From positions 1,798,001-1,862,000 of the forward strand of contig NZ_VFYP01000001.1 in the NCBI RefSeq assembly GCF_006443685.1: a stretch of DNA of 64,000 nucleotides, read 5' to 3'. The notes below the pieces were generated by a model, which ran no database searches, was not told where the DNA came from, and worked only from the letters and a program-made list of their open reading frames with translations. This document shows, in pieces, positions 6,749 to 58,227 of this stretch. Position 1 is the first letter of the stretch, and each line of letters starts with the position of its first letter. A program made the translations under genes and the position numbers. This DNA comes from Rhizobium glycinendophyticum (GTDB lineage Bacteria > Pseudomonadota > Alphaproteobacteria > Rhizobiales > Rhizobiaceae).

Positions 6749-6892
6749 TCAACGGAACGAGCGCGAAGCGATGTTGCGGATTTCGTAGCGGGTGATGCCG
6801 ATGTCGTTCAGGGTCTGGCTGGAAAGGTTGCCCAGTTCAGCCATCGTACGGCGGTAGCTCATCCAGTTCTTGGCAATGCGGATCGGGTTCAT
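6749..6892 (-). CDS. DUF1127 small protein (first copy)
   Basis: A 47-residue basic protein beginning MNPIRIAKNWMSYRR, with the DUF1127 pattern (ELGNLSSQTLNDIGITRYEI). It is too short for many gene finders. A GAGGAAA site precedes the ATG. DUF1127 proteins of alphaproteobacteria are short Arg-rich polypeptides; some have been linked to RNA binding or turnover and to stress or phosphate and carbon metabolism. A -10 element and a 13-nt upstream box (6959-6993) match the promoter of the sRNA at 54.4 kb. A strong terminator follows, so the gene is a monocistron. Confidence 0.9.
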   Translation of the reverse strand: MNPIRIAKNWMSYRRTMAELGNLSSQTLNDIGITRYEIRNIASRSFR

Positions 6893-29805: not shown

Positions 29806-29966
29806 CCCCCTCTGTCCTTGTGCCTGAGATTGTTATCCCTTCGGCTTGGTCCGCTTTGGAAACGGGCCTCTCTCCAGAGTGCAGTCGACGCCTTGTGGTC
29901 CTTTTGCCTGAGAGTTTCCGGGGCGGTTGCTCCTTCGGCTCCGGATTGAACCGGTTTCTCCCAACA
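29806..29966 (-). promoter_or_regulatory. Tandem glycine riboswitch
   Basis: The minus strand contains two glycine aptamers in series. The first (29966-29895) has GGGAGA, GGAGCCGAAGGAGCAA and AACTCTCAGGCAAAAGGACC. The second (29884-29806) has TCTGGAGAG, GCCGAAGGGATAACAATC and TCTCAGGCACAAGGAC. This is the classic ON switch before gcvT. It ends about 68 nt before the TTG start; a GGCACAACCGTGCC hairpin in that gap may be part of the expression platform. Confidence 0.95.
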
Positions 29967-30157
29967 AGGTCATGTCGGCATTATCCGCCGACATGGGGGC
30001 TTGGCAAGAGGCCGCGTCGCTTGCGAGCAAATATTTGTCGCATGGCCAAGCTGTTTGCGTTGGCGCAAATCCGAAGGAGAAGATCGTTTCCCGCGTCATC
30101 TCGCCGCTTGGCTTGGACCATGCATCGCGATAAAGCACGGATCGAACGAGGAAGACG

Positions 30158-36269: not shown

Positions 36270-36298
36270 TGACTTGCTCCAGCCTCGGGCCTAATCCT
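36270..36298 (+). promoter_or_regulatory. Predicted promoter of the cobU-cobW-cobN operon
   Basis: TTGACT (36270-36275) and TAATCC (36293-36298) are separated by 17 nt. The predicted start near 36305 lies at the 5' edge of the cobalamin riboswitch, which fits. Confidence 0.55.
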
Positions 36299-36311
36299 TC
36301 TCGTGGATGGT

Positions 36312-36646
36312 TTTCGGACGGCAGACAGGCCGCCCGGAGAGCAAAAGGGAATGCGAAGGCCTGGACCCATGCCGGGCAAGCCGAACGCAGCCGACCCCGC
36401 GACTGTATTGCAGCGAGGGTCTTCCATCCTGCCTGTGGAGATCGATGGCGACGGATCGCGTGGTGCGGTCGGCCTGATGTCGAAGCGGGTGGGAAAAGCC
36501 ACTGGAGTGGCGACACGAACAGCCGGGGTTGGACGCCTCTTTTTCTACGAATCGTCCTCCTCTTCGTGTTGCGAAACAACTCCGGGAAGGCGAGGAAGGC
36601 CCGCTGGCACACTGTGCCACGACCTGCGAGCCAGGAGACCTGCCGT
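36312..36646 (+). promoter_or_regulatory. Cobalamin (AdoCbl) riboswitch
   Basis: The leader contains the cobalamin riboswitch landmarks in order: AAAGGGAATGCG (36345), the B12 box region ACCCCGCGACTGTA (about 36394-36407), GCCACTGG (36499), CGGGAAGGCG (36583) and GCGAGCCAGGAGACCTGCC (about 36626-36644). The second domain carries a long insert. It precedes cobU by about 200 nt and would repress the operon when B12 is plentiful. Confidence 0.92.
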
Positions 36647-36705
36647 CCGTGACGGGCATCGTGCCCACCTGGGGAGCAATCCCCGTTGCCAACACGGAGG
36701 TTGTC

Positions 36706-49300: not shown

Positions 49301-50038
49301 ATGACCGGTAAACTCTATGGCCTTGGTCTCGGCCCCGGCGATCCGGAACTGTTGACGCTGAAGGCGCATCGCATTCTGACCAGCTGCCCGGTCGTGGCCT
49401 ATCCGGCGCCCGATACCGGCCCAAGCTTTGCTCGCCAGATCGCCGCTCCCTATCTGACGGCCGCCCAGCTGGAAGTGCCGATCATCGTGCCAATGCGCGT
49501 CGAGCGTTTTCCGGCCCAGGACATCTATACCCAGGCCGCGGAGACGCTGTCACATCATCTCGATGCGGGCTCCGATGTCGCCGTGCTCTGTGAGGGTGAC
49601 CCCTTCTTCTACGGCTCCTTCATGTATCTCTTCGAGCGCCTTGCCGACCGGTATCCGACCGAGGTCGTGCCGGGTGTCTCCTCGATGATGGCCGCCGCCG
49701 CTGGCCTCGGTCGCCCGCTCGCGGCCCGCAACGACGTGCTGACGGTGCTGCCGGGACCTCTTTCGGATCAAGAGCTTTCAGCCCGCATCGAGGCCTCCGG
49801 CGCCGTTGCCATTATCAAGCTTGGCCGGCATTTTGCGCGGATCCGCGCGCTGATCCAAAGCCTCGGGCTGACGGCCCAGGCCGGATACGCGGAGCGGGTC
49901 AGCCTTGCCGAACAGAAGCTGACGCCGCTCGGCGAGGTGTCCGAGGACACCGCGCCCTATTTCTCGATGATCCTGATCTACAAGGGTGAGGAGCGCTGGC
50001 ATCCGGCACTCGCCAAGACGCTGGGAAGCGGGGCCTGA
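49301..50038 (+). CDS. cobI: Precorrin-2 C20-methyltransferase
   Basis: SAM-dependent methylase of 245 residues that commits precorrin-2 to corrin synthesis. It has YGLGLGPGDPELLTLKA at the N-terminus, CEGDPFFYGSFMYLFERL and VVPGVSSMMAAAAGLGRPLA, typical of CobI/CbiL. Its stop overlaps the cobJ start by one base (TGATG). Confidence 0.97.
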   Translation: MTGKLYGLGLGPGDPELLTLKAHRILTSCPVVAYPAPDTGPSFARQIAAPYLTAAQLEVPIIVPMRVERFPAQDIYTQAAETLSHHLDAGSDVAVLCEGDPFFYGSFMYLFERLADRYPTEVVPGVSSMMAAAAGLGRPLAARNDVLTVLPGPLSDQELSARIEASGAVAIIKLGRHFARIRALIQSLGLTAQAGYAERVSLAEQKLTPLGEVSEDTAPYFSMILIYKGEERWHPALAKTLGSGA

Positions 50039-51993
50039 TGGCGGGTATCGTGGCATCCCCGGTGAAACCGGTCGTCGTCATCCTCAGTGAGGCAGCCGCT
50101 TCGCTTGGCCGCCGCATTGCGGCGGAACTTGATGGCGAGCTGCACGGTGCCTCCTCCCGCGTGACGGACGCTGATATCCGGTTTTCCTCTGCCAAGGACC
50201 ATGTCCAGACGCTGTTTTCCGCCGGTCGGCCGATCGTCGCCGTGATGGCCTCCGGCGCTCTGATCCGGCTGCTCGCGCCGCTGCTGTCAGACAAACACGC
50301 CGAGCCCCCGGTGCTCGCCGTCGCCGAGGACGGTTCTTCCGTTGTGCCATTGCTCGGCGGTCATCATGGTGCCAATGATCTCGCACGGCAGATTGCCTCG
50401 GCGCTTGGCGCCCATGCCGCGATTACCACAGCGGGTGATCTCAAGTTTGGCGTGGCACTCGATCAGCCGCCTTATGGTTATGCGCTTGCCAATCCGCAGA
50501 ATGCCAAGGCCGTCATGGCAGAGCTCGTCGCGGGGGCGGGTGTGCGGCTGGACCTTCCTTCTCCCCGGCTGCGGGGAGAAGGTGCCCGAAGGGCGGATGA
50601 GGGGCTGATTGAGCCCGGTGCGCAAGACCTGCCCCTCACCCCGGCCCTCTCCCCGCAGGCGGGGAGAGGGGGTATCGCCGCCTGGCTCATCCAATCCCGA
50701 CTTCCATTCCAACAAGAGGCCCGCGTGACGCTCACCGTGACCGACCAACAGAAGACCGCCGGCGAGCTGGAACTCGTCTATCATCCGAAGACGCTGGTGC
50801 TCGGCATGGGCTGCGAGCGGCATGCAAAGCCGGAAGAGGCCATCGCGCTCGCCGAGGAAGCACTCGCCAAGGGAGGTTTTGCGAGGGAAAGCCTGGCGGC
50901 CGTCTGCTCGATCGACCTGAAGGCAGATGAGACGGCGATCCATGCGGCGGCCGCCCATTTCGGCGTGCCGGCCCGCTTCTTTGACGCAGCGACGCTCGAA
51001 GCCGAAGCACCGCGTCTGAAGAACCCCTCCGAAGTCGTCTTCGCCGAAGTCGGCTGCCACGGCGTGGCGGAAGGGGCGGCCCTTGCTGCTGTCGGCGCTG
51101 CTGGCGAACTCGTCGTCGAAAAGATCAAGTCGAAGGGCGCCACGGCCGCGATCGCGAGCGCTGCAGACATCGTGGACCCGAAGACGATTGGCCGTGCCCG
51201 GGGCACGCTTTTCGTTGTCGGCATCGGCCCGGGCTCGGACGGCTGGCGGTCGCCCGAGGTCTCGCGCATGGTCGCGGCCTCCACCGATCTCGTCGGTTAC
51301 TCCCTCTATCTCGATCTGCTCGGGCCTCTGGCGGACGGCAAGACCCGTCACGATTTCGACCTCGGCAAGGAAGAGGCGCGCGTCGTGCATGCCATGGAAC
51401 TGGCGGGCGAGGGCAGGACGGTGGCGCTGGTTTGTTCTGGTGACGCCGGCATCTATGCCATGGCGACGCTGGTTTTCGAACTCTTCGATAAGGGCGGCAT
51501 CACCGATGCCGCAAGCCGGATCGAAGTGCAGGTCTCGCCCGGCATCTCCGCACTCCAGGCTGCCGCCGCCCGCATCGGCGCGCCGCTCGGCCATGATTTC
51601 TGCACCATCTCGCTGTCGGACCTTCTGACTCCCTGGGAGCATATCCAGCGCCGGGTGAAGGCGGCAGGCGAGGGCGATTTCGTCATCGCCTTCTACAACC
51701 CGGTATCGATGAAGCGCCGCACGCAGCTGGCTTACGCCCGGGACGATTTGCTGAAATATCGCCCGGCGACGACGCCGGTCATCCTCGCCACCAATCTTGG
51801 CCGCGAGGGCGAAAACGTTCGCACCGTGCCGCTGGGCGAGTTGAACGTCGACGATGTCGACATGCTGACCGTCGTAGTGGTCGGCTCGTCCGAGAGCCGG
51901 ACGGTGACGACTGGCGACGGCAAGACCTGGGTTTACACGCCTCGTGGTTATTCGGGGAAGGCAGACAGTGGCATGAAGGGAAGTGAAGCATGA
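50038..51993 (+). CDS. cobJ: CbiG/CobE - CobJ fusion (precorrin-3B C17-methyltransferase)
   Basis: A 651-residue fusion. Residues 1-165 are CbiG N-terminal-like (VVILSEAAASLGRRIAAEL, IVAVMASGALIRLLAPLL). Residues about 240-370 are the CbiG C-terminal/CobE domain (LVLGMGCERHAKPEEAIALA, GCHGVAEGAAL). From about 395 it is CobJ (FVVGIGPGSDGWRSPEV, CSGDAGIYAMATLVFEL, AFYNPVSMKRR), the ring-contracting C17 methylase. Residues about 172-213 are encoded by two palindromic repeats (PSPRLRGEGARRADEG and ALSPQAGRGG) and lie in the linker between the CbiG halves. It overlaps cobM by 4 nt. Confidence 0.94.
   Translation: MAGIVASPVKPVVVILSEAAASLGRRIAAELDGELHGASSRVTDADIRFSSAKDHVQTLFSAGRPIVAVMASGALIRLLAPLLSDKHAEPPVLAVAEDGSSVVPLLGGHHGANDLARQIASALGAHAAITTAGDLKFGVALDQPPYGYALANPQNAKAVMAELVAGAGVRLDLPSPRLRGEGARRADEGLIEPGAQDLPLTPALSPQAGRGGIAAWLIQSRLPFQQEARVTLTVTDQQKTAGELELVYHPKTLVLGMGCERHAKPEEAIALAEEALAKGGFARESLAAVCSIDLKADETAIHAAAAHFGVPARFFDAATLEAEAPRLKNPSEVVFAEVGCHGVAEGAALAAVGAAGELVVEKIKSKGATAAIASAADIVDPKTIGRARGTLFVVGIGPGSDGWRSPEVSRMVAASTDLVGYSLYLDLLGPLADGKTRHDFDLGKEEARVVHAMELAGEGRTVALVCSGDAGIYAMATLVFELFDKGGITDAASRIEVQVSPGISALQAAAARIGAPLGHDFCTISLSDLLTPWEHIQRRVKAAGEGDFVIAFYNPVSMKRRTQLAYARDDLLKYRPATTPVILATNLGREGENVRTVPLGELNVDDVDMLTVVVVGSSESRTVTTGDGKTWVYTPRGYSGKADSGMKGSEA
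50552..50676. repeat. Tandem A-type palindromic repeats inside cobJ
   Basis: Cores CCTTCTCCCCG/CGGGGAGAAGG (50557-50582) and CCCTCTCCCCGC/GCGGGGAGAGGG (50645-50670), with GGGCGGATGAGGGGC and GCCCCTCACC between them as inverted arms. It is read through in the cobJ frame. Confidence 0.88.
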
Positions 51994-52769
51994 CCGTCTA
52001 TTTCATTGGCGCCGGCCCCGGAGCCCCCGATCTGATCACCGTACGCGGCCTGCGGCTCATCGAGCGCTGCCCGGTGTGCCTCTATGCGGGCTCGCTGGTG
52101 CCGGAGGAGATCGTCAAGGCGGCCCCTGAAGATGCCCTCGTCAGGGACACGGCTCCCATGCATCTCGACGAGATCATCGCCGAAATCGAGGCAGCCCATG
52201 CGCGCGGCGAGGATGTCGCCCGTGTGCATTCCGGCGACCCGTCGATCTATGGTGCAATCGCCGAACAGATGCGACGGCTCGATGCGGCAGGCATTCCCTA
52301 TGACGTCGTCCCCGGCGTACCGGCCTTCGCTGCGACCGCAGCACGCCTGAAGACCGAGCTCACTTTGCCGGAAATCGCCCAGACGGTCATCGTCACCCGC
52401 ACCGAGATGAAGGCATCTTCGATGCCGGAATTTGAGACGCTGGAGATCCTCGGCAAGTCGCGGGCGACGCTTGCGATCCACCTGTCGATCCGCAATCTCA
52501 CCCATATCCGCGATACCCTGTCGCCCTATTATGGCGAGGATTGCCCTGTCGTGATCGCCTATCGTTCCACCTGGCCGGATGAACTCTTCATCCGCACGAC
52601 GCTGAAGGATATGGCGGAGGAAGTGCGCAAGGCGAAGATCACCCGGACGGCGCTGATCATGGTCGGCAAGGTGTTCGGCCATGTCGAGTTTCGCGACAGC
52701 GACCTCTACAATTCCGATTTCAGCCACGTCCTGCGCAATGTCGGGAAAAAGAAGAAGGCGAGCGCCTGA
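51990..52769 (+). CDS. cobM: Precorrin-4 C11-methyltransferase
   Basis: SAM-dependent methylase of 259 residues. It starts MTVYFIGAGPGAPDLITVRG and has CLYAGSLVPEEI, VHSGDPSIYGAIAEQM and YRSTWPDE, all typical of CobM/CbiF. It overlaps cobJ by 4 nt (ATGA) and is the last cob gene in the block. The C-terminus is Lys-rich. Confidence 0.97.
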   Translation: MTVYFIGAGPGAPDLITVRGLRLIERCPVCLYAGSLVPEEIVKAAPEDALVRDTAPMHLDEIIAEIEAAHARGEDVARVHSGDPSIYGAIAEQMRRLDAAGIPYDVVPGVPAFAATAARLKTELTLPEIAQTVIVTRTEMKASSMPEFETLEILGKSRATLAIHLSIRNLTHIRDTLSPYYGEDCPVVIAYRSTWPDELFIRTTLKDMAEEVRKAKITRTALIMVGKVFGHVEFRDSDLYNSDFSHVLRNVGKKKKASA

Positions 52770-53933: not shown

Positions 53934-54080
53934 TCAGCCGTTGACGGCGTGACGGGCAACGCGACGGATGTCTTCACGGCCGATGCCGAGGTCGCGCAGT
54001 TCACGGTCCGACATGCGGCCGAGTTCAGTAATGGTCTGACGATACTTGCGCCAGTTGGTGAGCGAGCGAGCGATGTTCAT
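53934..54080 (-). CDS. DUF1127 small protein (second copy)
   Basis: A 48-residue basic protein, MNIARSLTNWRKYRQTITELG, with RMSDRELRDLGIGREDI, the DUF1127 core. It is more Arg-rich than the copy at 6.8 kb. AGAGG precedes the ATG at 54080. It ends at the terminator at 53866. An sRNA locus with CCUCCUCCC loops lies 250 bases upstream on the same strand. In Rhodobacter a DUF1127 gene (ccaF1) is co-transcribed with the CcsR sRNAs of the same loop type, so the neighbourhood is probably functional. Confidence 0.92.
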   Translation of the reverse strand: MNIARSLTNWRKYRQTITELGRMSDRELRDLGIGREDIRRVARHAVNG

Positions 54081-54141
54081 GGGATCTACCTCTTTGGTGG
54101 TTGGACCCATCCGTGGGCCCCTTCGAATTTGTTGAGCTGAA

Positions 54142-54169
54142 TATATGCTGCGTTGCGAAATCATTGAAG
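54142..54169 (-). promoter_or_regulatory. Candidate promoter of second DUF1127 gene
   Basis: On the minus strand CTTCAA (54169-54164) and CATATA (54147-54142) are 16 nt apart, about 60 bases before the ATG. The pattern is close to RpoH-type promoters (CTTGAA/CCATAT-like). A palindrome ATGCGCCTAGCGCAT lies further upstream at 54191-54205. Both are tentative. Confidence 0.35.
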
Positions 54170-54326
54170 ACATAATGCAACAGAGCACCCATGCGCCTAG
54201 CGCATATCAAACGATTTAACGCATTGTTAATTGATGGTTTTTTGAGCGTTTGCATGAACGACGGCTTCGCCTCTGACCGGGGGGCATTTCAGTCTCGGGG
54301 GGATGGAAGCGCAGCGGCGCGCGAAG

Positions 54327-54479
54327 ACAAAAAATAACGCTCACCGGGGGAGGAGGTCCGGTGAGCGTTATTGTTGAGATCGGCGACTGGGAGGAGGAGT
54401 GTCGCCGATCAATCGATCCCGCATTGGGAGGAGGAGGTGCGGGTCGAAGCTCTGAGCGCCGTAAACCGCCGCTCTGTTG
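54327..54479 (-). ncRNA. Candidate sRNA with three CCUCCUCCC stem-loops (cuckoo/CcsR type)
   Basis: Read on the minus strand, three stem-loops follow each other. H1 (54443-54418, stem CCCGCA/TGCGGG) has loop CCTCCTCCTCCCAA. H2 (54410-54378, 10-bp stem GATCGGCGAC) has loop ACTCCTCCTCCCA. H3 (54372-54333, 15-bp perfect stem) has loop ACCTCCTCCC and is followed by T6, making it the terminator. A weaker hairpin lies at the 5' end (54474-54454). The predicted start near 54479 gives about 150 nt. CCUCCUCCC loops mark the cuckoo/CcsR sRNA family of alphaproteobacteria; the motif mimics the anti-Shine-Dalgarno sequence. No ORF fits. Confidence 0.8.
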
Positions 54480-54485
54480 AGAGTG

Positions 54486-54520
54486 AATATAAGCGCCACT
54501 TACAGTCTTGTGCAGTGCAA
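54486..54520 (-). promoter_or_regulatory. Promoter of the CCUCCUCCC sRNA with TTGCACTGCACAA box
   Basis: The box TTGCACTGCACAA (54520-54508, minus strand) is followed after 16 nt by TATATT (54491-54486). Box and spacing are identical to those before the first DUF1127 gene at 6.96 kb. The remaining 54521-54655 shows nothing more that I can support, apart from being the upstream region of the DUF2157 gene. Confidence 0.55.
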
Positions 54521-54655
54521 TATTGGCATGGAAGGCATGCGGTTTGCGCATGGGCGCCGAGAGCATCGAACGAGACGCGGTCCGGATGGCCCAAGGCTTG
54601 AGTTTGCCTGAGACCAATAGCAAATTGGCAGCGAACGGCATGGGGGTGACGGCTA

Positions 54656-55765
54656 ATGTATCGCGGTAGACTGAAAAACGATCTGGAGGACTGGACGAAG
54701 CGCGGGTTGCTCGACGCATCGACAGCAAAACGGCTGCTCGATGATGTGGATCTAAGAGGAGACCGCTTCAGTATCGGCACCGTCCTCTCAATGTTCGCGG
54801 CCGTTTTGATCGCGGCATCCATCCTGATGCTGGTCGCGGCCAACTGGGAGGCCATCCCCCGCTTGGTCAAGGTGGCGGGCATTATCGGCCTGATCTGGAT
54901 ATTCCACACAATCGCGATCGTCGCTCGCATGCGCAGCGCCGACAGGATCGTCGCAGCGTCGCTGGTGCTCGGTGCAGCCGCCTTCGGCGGCGCAATCGCA
55001 CTGATCGGCCAACTCTATCATCTCTCGGGCGACACCTTCTCGGCGATGTTGCTTTGGTTCGTTGTGACCGCCGTCTCGGCCGGACTCTTCCGCTCCGGTG
55101 CGCTCGCGGTGGTGGCCGGCGCCTTGTCCCTTGTCGCCTTCGGCGGCGGGTTCGACAGTTTCGGCTGGGATGTCGGCGGGCATGGTCTCTGGGCTTGGTG
55201 GCCAGCCTTCGGCGCTTTGGCAATCTTTGCGCTGGCCCACTGGACGGGCGGCTATCGCGCCAAGCATTTTGGTTATCTTCTGCTGCTTTCGTGGATTTGG
55301 TGGATTGCCATCATCGACAGGCAAATCACCTGGTCCCTTTCCATTGCGCTTGCGGCAGGTCTGGTCTTTTTCCTGCTTGCTGTCCCGCGCTCACCGCTGG
55401 CAGCGATCCATCAAAGACTTGGGACCTCCGCCACCTTCTACGCGCTGCTGCTGGCGTTCACGGCATTCTCTTTCGTGCAGGCGCAACTCCTTGATGCAAT
55501 GTCTATCGCCGTTTTGGGCGTCATCATCGTCGCCCTCGCGATCGCCGCCATCGCGCTAGAAGGCCGTGACAACGGTGCGGTGCGGTTTCTGAGCTATGCG
55601 GCCTTCGCCGCCGAGGTGCTGTATCTGTCCTACGAGACAATCGACAGCATTCTCGGCACATCTGCTTTCTTCCTGCTTTCGGGTCTCGTCATGGCGCTGC
55701 TTGCCTTCGTCGTCGTCCGCCTCGAAAAGCGCTTTTCCAACCGCTCAGCAGAGGTGACCCCATGA
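54656..55765 (+). CDS. DUF2157 domain-containing membrane protein
   Basis: A 369-residue protein with a cytoplasmic N-terminal DUF2157 region (LKNDLEDWTKRGLLDASTAKRLLDDV) and about ten or more membrane segments from residue 43 on. Function unknown. It overlaps the next gene by 4 nt (ATGA). DUF2157 and GDYXXLXY proteins commonly occur as an adjacent pair, suggesting a joint membrane role. Confidence 0.9.
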   Translation: MYRGRLKNDLEDWTKRGLLDASTAKRLLDDVDLRGDRFSIGTVLSMFAAVLIAASILMLVAANWEAIPRLVKVAGIIGLIWIFHTIAIVARMRSADRIVAASLVLGAAAFGGAIALIGQLYHLSGDTFSAMLLWFVVTAVSAGLFRSGALAVVAGALSLVAFGGGFDSFGWDVGGHGLWAWWPAFGALAIFALAHWTGGYRAKHFGYLLLLSWIWWIAIIDRQITWSLSIALAAGLVFFLLAVPRSPLAAIHQRLGTSATFYALLLAFTAFSFVQAQLLDAMSIAVLGVIIVALAIAAIALEGRDNGAVRFLSYAAFAAEVLYLSYETIDSILGTSAFFLLSGLVMALLAFVVVRLEKRFSNRSAEVTP

Positions 55766-56337
55766 TCGCCACCAAGCCATTTGCCGCTGTTGCGCTCCTC
55801 GTTGCGGTCGCGCAAACCGCCATTCTGGGCTTCATGATCGAGGGGAGGGCGTCTATCCTGCGGTCTGGCACGGAAGTGCTGCTGAAGACGGCCCCCGTCG
55901 ACCCGCGCGATCTTCTGCGCGGTGATTATGTCGTGCTGTCCTATGACATCGCGACGGTCCCGGTATCCCTGTTCAAAGGGCCGAAACCCACGGACGGAAG
56001 CTCAGGCAGTGTGGAGGTTCGCATAAAGCCGGGCGTCGACGGATTCTGGACGGTCGCCGAAGCCTCGACCGAGCCGTTGCAGACTGAAGAAGGTTCTGTG
56101 ATCCTGCACTCCCAACCAATCCAGTTTTCCGATTGGCAATGGGCTGAGGGGAGCAGTCTTTTTCTGTCTTATGGCATCGAGCGCTATTACGTGCCGGAAG
56201 GAGAGGGGCGGCCGATCGAGGATGGGCGCAATGAAGGCCGCGTATCTGTTGCAGTGCGTGTTTCCGACGAGGGCGTCGCACAGATTCGCGCCCTGATGCT
56301 CGATGGCGATCCGCTTTACGAGGAACCGCTCTACTGA
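55762..56337 (+). CDS. GDYXXLXY domain-containing protein
   Basis: A 191-residue protein with one N-terminal membrane segment or signal anchor (VALLVAVAQTAILGFMI) and the name-giving motif RGDYVVLSYDI near residue 55, followed by a beta-rich periplasmic domain ending in an RVSDEGVAQIRALMLDG segment. Function unknown. It is translationally coupled to the DUF2157 gene. Confidence 0.9.
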   Translation: MIATKPFAAVALLVAVAQTAILGFMIEGRASILRSGTEVLLKTAPVDPRDLLRGDYVVLSYDIATVPVSLFKGPKPTDGSSGSVEVRIKPGVDGFWTVAEASTEPLQTEEGSVILHSQPIQFSDWQWAEGSSLFLSYGIERYYVPEGEGRPIEDGRNEGRVSVAVRVSDEGVAQIRALMLDGDPLYEEPLY

Positions 56338-56571: not shown

Positions 56572-56751
56572 GCTTAGCCGCGCGGGATGGATATGAGACG
56601 CAAATATTGTGGCTCTGACCATCCGGCGCCGTTTTGCTTGGCAGAATGTTTGATTGCGACGCAGCCACGTCCGGATAAATGAATTCCGGCGTCGTGCTCA
56701 GTGAAACCACCGGCTGCCCGAGCACGGCCGCCACGACATGAAGGTAAGAAC

Positions 56752-58227
56752 ATGCAGGTTATCGAAACGCTCGCTGAAGGGCTGAAGCGCGAAATCAAGG
56801 TCGTGATCCCGGCCAAGGACATGGAACAGCAGATGAACGAGCGTCTGGCTGATGTGAAGGACAAGGTCCGGATCAACGGCTTCCGCCCGGGCAAGGTGCC
56901 GGTCTCGCACGTCAAGAAGATGTACGGCAAGTCGATCATGGCTGAACTCGTCAACGAGATCATCCGCGACCGCCCGAGCGCGATCCTGTCGGAGCGCGGC
57001 GAAAAGTCGGCGACCCAGCCGGAAATCGCCATGACCGAGGACGAAGCCGAAGCCGAGAAGATCCTGAACGCCCAGGCCGACCTCGAATTCACGCTCTCCT
57101 ACGAGATCATCCCCGCGATCGAACTGAAGTCGGTTGACGGCATCAAGGTCACCCGCGAAGTGGTCGAGATCTCGGAAGACGAGATCAACGAGCAGATCCT
57201 CAAGATCGCCGAAAGCGCCCGCACCTTCGAGACCAAGAAGGGCAAGGCCGCCGATGGCGACCGCGTCACCATGGATTACCTCGGCAAGGTCGATGGCGTT
57301 CCCTTCGACGGTGGCAAGGACGAAGACGCAGAGCTGGTCATCGGCTCGAACCGCTTCATCCCGGGCTTCGAGGAGCAGCTGGTCGGCTTGAAGGCTGGCG
57401 ACGAAAAGGTCATCACCGTGACCTTCCCGGCTGAATATCCGGCTGCCAACCTCGCCGGCAAGGAAGCCACCTTCGACATCACCGTGAAGGAAGTGGCAGC
57501 TCCGGCTGCGACCGAAATCAACGACGACCTCGCGACCAAGCTCGGCGTCGAATCGGTCGAGAAGCTGAAGGAAATCGTTCGCGGCCAGATCGAAAGCCAA
57601 TACGGCAACGTAACCCGCCAGAAGATCAAGCGTCAGATCCTCGACCAGCTCGACGCGATCTACAAGTTCGAAGCCCCGTCGAAGCTGATCGACGCCGAGT
57701 TCGACAACATCTGGCGCCAGATCAACACCGATCTCGCCCAGTCCGGCAAGACCTTCGCTGACGAAGACACGACGGAAGAAGCAGCTCGCGAAGAATACCG
57801 CACGCTCGCCGAGCGCCGCGTTCGCCTCGGCCTCGTTCTCTCCGAAATCGGCGAAAAGGCCGGCATCGAAGTGACCGACGAGGAAATGCAGCGTTCGCTC
57901 TTCGCACAGCTGCAGCAGTTCCCGGGCCAGGAAAAGGAAATCCTGGAATTCTTCCGCAAGACGCCTGGTGCCGCCGCTTCGCTGCGCGCTCCGATCTTCG
58001 AAGAAAAGGTCATCGACAAGCTGCTGGCTGACGTCACCGTCACCGACAAGACCGTGACCAAGGAAGAGCTGCTCGCTGAAGACGCCGAGGAAGGCGACAA
58101 GCCGAAGAAGGCCGCTTCGAAGAAGAAGGCCGCTGCCAAGGTTGACGACGCTGCCGAAGGCGAAGAAGCCGCTCCGAAGAAGAAGGCAGCTGCGAAGAAG
58201 AAGGCCGCCGAAGGCGACGCCGAGTAA
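56752..58227 (+). CDS. tig: Trigger factor
   Basis: Ribosome-associated chaperone and peptidyl-prolyl isomerase. It starts [20 protein letters not shown] and has the ribosome-binding signature [16 protein letters not shown] near residue 45, an FKBP domain (about 160-245, [20 protein letters not shown] in parts) and a helical C-terminal domain. The last 45 residues are a Lys/Ala-rich tail (KKKAAAK repeats) common in rhizobial Tig. AAGGT precedes the ATG at 56752, giving 491 residues. A terminator follows. Confidence 0.97.

Follow-up and report, generated by a model that had tools for sequence, protein, structure and literature searches.

Between positions 54327 and 54479 of a 64-kb stretch of Rhizobium glycinendophyticum DNA (hereafter the window, i.e., the whole sequence analysed), the minus strand can be folded into a row of hairpins, and a gene for a short DUF1127 protein lies just beyond them. 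The questions are whether these hairpins belong to a new kind of small RNA or to one already described, what such an RNA might do, and whether its place beside the DUF1127 gene has any meaning.

The three-hairpin RNA and its family

The minus strand of 54327-54479 folds at -69.9 kcal/mol, compared with a shuffle mean of -40.3 (z = -8.55; 0 of 200 shuffles equal). Working 5' to 3', hairpin 1 has a 6-bp stem plus 4 bp below a bulge, hairpin 2 has a perfect 10-bp stem, and the perfect 15-bp stem of hairpin 3 runs into T6. All three loops contain CCTCCTCCC (54434-54426, 54397-54389, and 54356-54348, minus strand), which occurs four times in the 64-kb window, three of them within the sRNA (expected mean 0.87; 1 of 100 shuffles reaches four). 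The fold and motif positions thus agree with a first-pass annotation that had proposed three minus-strand hairpins, the motif in every loop, and a T6 end. A simple terminator scan, whose loops were limited to 8 nt, found no terminator.

54329..54479 (minus): alpha-r14 (NfeR1-type) sRNA, ~151 nt, from Rfam match, fold, and -10 element; start placed from the -10, end from the T-run
54454..54474 (minus): 5' leader hairpin without the motif, from the predicted fold; outside the Rfam match
54413..54447 (minus): hairpin 1, loop motif CCUCCUCCC at 54426-54434, from fold and motif
54378..54410 (minus): hairpin 2, 10-bp stem, loop motif at 54389-54397, from fold and motif
54333..54372 (minus): hairpin 3, terminator-like, 15-bp stem, loop motif at 54348-54356, from fold and motif
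54329..54334 (minus): T6 tail after hairpin 3, from the sequence

When the whole window was scanned with Rfam at curated cut-offs, the ar14 model (RF02344) matched 54332-54452 (minus strand) over its full length (model positions 1-123 of 123) at 106.8 bits, above the gathering cut-off of 58.8, and the three hairpins with identical loops on stems that vary yet pair are all present. The window's three-hairpin RNA is a copy of the known rhizobial alpha-r14 (NfeR1-type) sRNA family. The earlier call of an anti-Shine-Dalgarno-loop sRNA with its own terminator hairpin was right. The likeness to cuckoo/CcsR RNAs that had also been noted is real as far as the Rhodobacter RNAs go (RS0680a, CIN1 loci), but full-length ar14/NfeR1 membership had been missed.

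The anatomy is not new, because identical anti-Shine-Dalgarno loops, variable stems, three- and four-hairpin forms, and the likeness to Rhodobacter have all been published. PMC10746234 describes alpha-r14 sRNAs as three hairpins that differ in their stems and carry the same CCUCCUCCC anti-Shine-Dalgarno motif in each. PMC3927594 (2011) reports three- and four-hairpin families with this loop (RFMSmelA075 and RFMSmelA099, respectively), proposes their merger into one family, and likens these rhizobial RNAs to Rhodobacter RS0680a, which is shorter and has two stem-loops; the same report rules out the four-hairpin copies as a novelty. The finding is real and ordinary in kind, within a family already known, and placing the RNA in a studied family averts a false claim of novelty. 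From RFMSmelA075 and RFMSmelA099, with the same motif in three or four hairpins, it does not differ in principle, the window copy being a three-motif form and the source genome also having four-motif copies. These two were later called cuckoo RNAs.

Four alpha-r14 copies, including that in the window, are present in the source genome. The other three lie by an RNase-D-like gene, between dinB-like and dnaQ-like genes, and near polA-like and hyi-like genes (names are our reading of the ORFs). Two copies (L003 and L004, which are the same as L093 and L112) carry an additional hairpin on the 5' side, the fourth, whose loop matches the others; judged by eye, its stem sequence is nearly constant across four-motif loci, unlike the other stems. 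More widely, 45 of 60 genomes of a genus and order sample had a match, including all 36 genus genomes searched, as did 146 of 151 in a family sample, 137 of the 151 being above the cut-off.

The loci examined in the genus and order set numbered 103, including the window, and are a subset of all matches; in 96, at least two exact motifs form a cluster, and the seven without one were dropped. Sorted by their neighbouring genes, the 96 comprise 31 at tig, 32 at RNase D, 15 at DUF1127/dinB/dnaQ, three at polA, and 15 others; four-motif copies number 27. Each RNase D locus has three motifs, whereas 24 tig loci have three exact motifs and seven have two. Each tig locus represents a different genome of the genus, 31 of 36 in all; the loci fetched from the remaining five genomes (G004, G007, G016, G018, and G029), four of which are <90% complete, included no tig locus.

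Across the 31 tig loci, window included, the motif is exact in 86 of 93 loops (31/31 in loop 1, 30/31 in loop 2, and 25/31 in loop 3, the other seven differing by one or two bases), a figure somewhat favoured by selection because loci were kept for having at least two exact motifs. Covariation was scored on the 24 of these 31 loci with three exact motifs (23 distinct rows), an alignment whose invariant loop columns are partly there by choice because the rows were picked for that property. Changes on both sides were found in 15 of 35 stem pairs (9.0 when shuffled), 93.4% of cells were paired (86.5% shuffled, at most 49% slid), and the covariation score was 0.277, compared with 0.142 shuffled and at most 0.103 with partners slid. 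Both sides had changed in 6/10 pairs of hairpin 1, 7/10 of hairpin 2, and 2/15 of hairpin 3; hairpin 1 is the weakest stem, with 79.1% of its cells paired, as against 99.1% in each of the other two. The stem structure is under covariation. Loops are kept across the 31 tig loci, and stems covary across the 24 that were aligned.

The tig neighbourhood and the DUF1127 gene

53934..54080 (minus): short DUF1127 protein, 48 aa, start ATG at 54080 (PF06568, 58.3 bits, E 6.3e-16; ORF)
54656..55765 (plus): DUF2157 membrane protein, divergent neighbour (PF09925)
56701..58227 (plus): trigger factor (tig) ORF, the landmark common to the NfeR1 locus (PF05697/PF05698/PF00254)

The founding member of the family, NfeR1/SmrC14 of Sinorhizobium meliloti, is reported to be flanked by SMc02051 and tig. 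Of these two flanking genes, tig is the one seen at the window locus, with the sRNA divergent from it at a distance of 2.3 kb; DUF2157 and GDYXXLXY genes and a tRNA, a difference from NfeR1, lie in between. The presumed orthology of the window copy with NfeR1 rests on this neighbourhood, with two genes and a tRNA between sRNA and tig. Three hairpins, identical CCUCCUCCC loops, variable stems, a candidate LysR-type site upstream, and several copies per genome are further points that it has in common with NfeR1/SmrC14/Smr14C2 (alpha-r14, RF02344). NfeR1 is 123 nt, however, whereas in the window copy the 5' leader is longer and holds an additional small hairpin, and the box is a TT variant.

The DUF2157 and GDYXXLXY genes (54656-56337, plus strand) are fast-diverging, DUF2157 having 38-85% identity to the window across the genus tig loci; DUF1127 is retained there at 78-98% identity. 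Elsewhere, the window contains a glycine riboswitch at 29886-29973 (minus strand; 63.1 bits, cut-off 32), a cobalamin riboswitch at 36291-36661 (plus strand; 50 bits, cut-off 31.5), and ORFs at 49301-52769 that we read as cobalamin-pathway methyltransferase-like. The CobJ-like ORF (again our reading) at 50038-51993 has a small-repeat-like insert at ~50560-50690 (plus strand), PSPRLRGEG...LTPALSPQAGRGG in translation.

The PF06568 match (58.3 bits) bears out the earlier statement that a DUF1127 gene adjoins the RNA, with the RNA upstream. A DUF1127 gene lies 3' of the sRNA and on the same strand at all 31 genus tig loci. The family set consisted of 60 stretches from the higher-scoring listed matches, one to three per genome; 59 had a motif cluster, 25 of these contained tig, and all 25 had a DUF1127 gene on the sRNA strand. 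The sRNA comes first at 18 of the 25 and the DUF1127 gene at seven, so the protein-first order of Rhodobacter and the order of the window both occur at one locus; at several family-set tig loci, the sRNA or the DUF1127 gene is present two or three times, as an array. Four-motif clusters that lie at neither tig nor RNase D have a same-strand DUF1127 gene no more than 800 nt to their 5' side in 12/28 cases (genus and order) and 4/9 (family).

CIN1 is the published designation for loci of CcsR-like sRNAs with DUF1127, and in the window, too, a DUF1127 gene adjoins an anti-Shine-Dalgarno hairpin sRNA. The likeness to CcsR1-4/CcaF1 of Rhodobacter sphaeroides extends to the strand and the shortness of the DUF1127 gene. 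In Rhodobacter, however, the DUF1127 gene is described as coming first, with the RNAs cut from its 3' UTR and an RpoHI/RpoHII promoter, whereas the window sRNA comes first, is self-terminated, and has its own -10. Coupling on the model of CcaF1 and CcsR in Rhodobacter would have the DUF1127 protein bind the sRNA and help it mature. The same-strand gene at every tig locus of both sets, the seven family loci in CIN1 order, and published accounts of CcaF1 as an RNA-binding protein co-transcribed with CcsR all speak for it. Yet we judge it unlikely, given an sRNA that precedes the gene and ends in its own terminator hairpin, a DUF1127 gene with its own box and -10-like element, and the 32 RNase D-locus copies of the genus set, none of which has a DUF1127 gene within 800 nt. 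In addition, the kinase PhoR is the reported route of action for short DUF1127 proteins of Agrobacterium, and YjiS of Salmonella is reported to have shown no RNA binding; in the literature drawn on, the roles of short DUF1127 proteins are disputed between RNA binder and protein binder.

At L130, a locus from a different family of the order, CCTCCTCCC is present six times in exact form, four copies in a cluster and two besides, directly downstream of a DUF1127 gene, a Rhodobacter-like arrangement.

LsrB/VtlR-like boxes before the sRNA and the DUF1127 gene

54528..54540 (minus): sRNA LsrB/VtlR-like box GCATGCCTTCCAT, TT variant of GCAT-N3-TG-N3-T, 49 nt before the -10
54508..54520 (minus): second element TTGCACTGCACAA, which overlaps the -35 position and is seen again upstream of the sRNA at most of the 31 tig loci
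54486..54491 (minus): -10 element TATATT of the sRNA promoter (sigma-70 scan: TGCACA-N17-TATATT, 9/12)
54182..54194 (minus): LsrB/VtlR-like box of the DUF1127 gene, GCATGGGTGCTCT, strict match (sequence match)
54140..54145 (minus): TATATT 49 nt 3' of that box, likely the DUF1127 gene's -10; absent from the sigma-70 scan sites

VtlR of Agrobacterium, the LsrB orthologue, is reported to activate abcR1 and atu1667 directly, with a proposed box GCAT-N3-TG-N3-T, and Brucella VtlR to activate three DUF1127 genes and AbcR2. In the window, the spacing from box to TATATT is 49 nt for both the sRNA and the DUF1127 gene. Measured against 2-mer shuffles, which are rough controls applied to related and not independent sequences, the strict box was found in 22/31 tig-locus DUF1127 promoters (shuffles 0.57, maximum 4), the variant GCA[TC]-N3-T[GT]-N3-T before 22/31 tig-locus sRNAs (shuffles 1.66, maximum 5), and the palindrome ATGC-N4-9-GCAT between sRNA and DUF1127 at 31/31 loci (shuffle mean 1.8, maximum 5). 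The strict form was found before 0/31 tig-locus sRNAs; it precedes 6/12 DUF1127 genes of the DUF1127/dinB group and, among the other sRNA groups, 9/32 at RNase D, 12/15 at DUF1127/dinB, 3/3 at polA, and 13/15 of the others. With the variant allowed, the box precedes the sRNAs of each locus group, and the DUF1127 genes, far above shuffles. Where TANNNT follows the box by 44-55 nt, the distance is most often 48 or 49 nt in every set (e.g., 49 nt in 13 tig-locus sRNAs and 21 tig-locus DUF1127 genes, and 48 nt in 12 RNase D copies). A promoter and leader pattern of the tig locus is common to 13 named records, with Rhizobium rosettiformans, Rhizobium rhizophilum, Agrobacterium albertimagni, Peteryoungia aggregata, and one Allorhizobium bin as the species.

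The source genome has four DUF1127 genes; in the flanks that were fetched, the strict box lies at promoter distance for the gene of this locus alone. The window's second DUF1127 gene (6776-6880, minus strand; 49.9 bits) has no strict LsrB/VtlR-like box in its fetched flank. All three AbcR-type sRNAs of the genome are preceded by the strict box, and that on contig C1 directly follows a LysR-type gene (PF00126, PF03466), which is the position of vtlR in Agrobacterium. The contig C1 AbcR promoter and the window sRNA promoter have GCATGCCT and CACTGCACAA in common; CACTGCACAA, noted with the second element, lies in the abcR-type promoter of L244. AbcR1/2 (alpha-r15) resemble the window sRNA in their anti-Shine-Dalgarno motifs and upstream box but constitute a separate Rfam family.

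The NfeR1-type promoter, CTTAGAC-N17-CTATAT with the LsrB site TGCA-N6-GCAT, differs from that of the window, which has TGCACA-N17-TATATT and the variant box GCATGCCTTCCAT. A search of the genome contigs for CTTAGAC-N17-CTATAT with the motif 10-40 nt downstream yielded none, so that signature may be a consensus only. The published VtlR 15-mer CAATGCAGCCATGCA outdid its shuffles for sRNAs of the RNase D, DUF1127/dinB, polA, and remaining groups; it did not clearly do so in the tig sRNA group (shuffles as good in 31%) or before DUF1127 genes (34% and 27%).

Departure of the window box from the strict form, which applies to that of L001 as well, raises the question of whether the window copy is a silent extra, with another of the several alpha-r14 genes being the one expressed. 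PMC7143759 reports six copies in S. meliloti, of which one (smrC14) is reliably seen on Northern blots. That expressed copy is, as described, the tig-flanked one, however, and its neighbourhood is retained here, where loops, stems, and promoter elements also recur in relatives; silence of the window copy therefore seems to us decidedly improbable.

Because only seven bases of the box are fixed, chance copies are frequent genome-wide, and the case for it rests on position and on recurrence among sequences that are related, not independent. What these features suggest is a candidate co-regulated sRNA-DUF1127 module under an LsrB/VtlR-type regulator, whose control in this species we infer from sequence. 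Because a separate box and -10-like element precede the DUF1127 gene at the same spacing, the sRNA and this gene are probably co-induced and not one operon. A limited literature search found no treatment of DUF1127 and NfeR1 together; the CIN1 paper may describe the pairing. Further literature drawn on was PMC10253847, PMC2780559, PMC2573895, PMC12218461, PMC12501420, PMC8625941, PMC12595884, PMC11975290, and PMC7486931.

Proposed action of the sRNA

Overall, our preferred reading, with a probability of about 85%, is that the window encodes a chromosomal alpha-r14 sRNA in the NfeR1 gene neighbourhood, with its own promoter, that acts in trans, its loops pairing with ribosome-binding sites and thereby silencing mRNAs. 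The sRNA would be driven by its own sigma-70-type promoter, the LysR-type regulator LsrB/VtlR probably turns it on, and hairpin 3 would end the transcript. Each loop could then pair with purine-rich ribosome-binding sites, leading to silencing; the identical loops would be redundant seeds, leaving the stems free to vary while pairing holds. Expression, targets, and silencing are all argued from analogy with NfeR1, by which transport and nitrogen-control mRNAs would be the targets. PMC10746234 reports that NfeR1 silences ntrB and two transporter mRNAs via redundant anti-Shine-Dalgarno motifs, that LsrB is its activator and NtrC its repressor, and that nitrogen stress, salt shock, and symbiosis are its inducers; an Hfq-independent transcript is also part of its published description. 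Heat and oxidative stress as inducers were a guess of the first-pass annotation.

Perfect 9-mer target sites before an ATG numbered five in the genome's own sequence and five for a permuted control, i.e., there was no excess. The five precede a nadA-like ORF, an SMR-like transporter, a Gfo/Idh-like oxidoreductase, and ORFs of 17 and 80 aa (names being our reading of the translations), and their spacers of 5-7 nt fit a ribosome-binding site. Pairing of a loop with the DUF1127 ribosome-binding site was considered and rejected as not special (-6.9 kcal/mol; shuffles averaged -4.5 and reached -10.8); the tig start used in that comparison is probably 9 nt off. Three identical loops could also serve as equal docking sites that titrate a protein or another RNA instead of silencing mRNAs, as had been raised earlier. 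The target-site searches, the only search made for a partner, lend this no support, the loops of NfeR1 are reported to silence mRNAs by pairing (PMC10746234), and we consider such a sponge highly improbable. For silencing through loop pairing, our own target tests added no support to what is reported for the family.

Through the box that it shares with a neighbouring anti-Shine-Dalgarno sRNA, the DUF1127 gene offers a way to test directly if protein and sRNA cooperate, a matter of modest importance. It is possible, though we hold this only tentatively, that LsrB/VtlR has a two-output module at the Rhizobiaceae tig locus, in which an anti-Shine-Dalgarno sRNA and a short DUF1127 protein are co-induced from equally spaced promoters. 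If that were true, the protein may, like CcaF1, affect the sRNA or the sRNA's targets, the alpha-r14, AbcR, and short DUF1127 genes would form one regulon, and the ccaF1-ccsR operon of Rhodobacter would be a rearranged relative.
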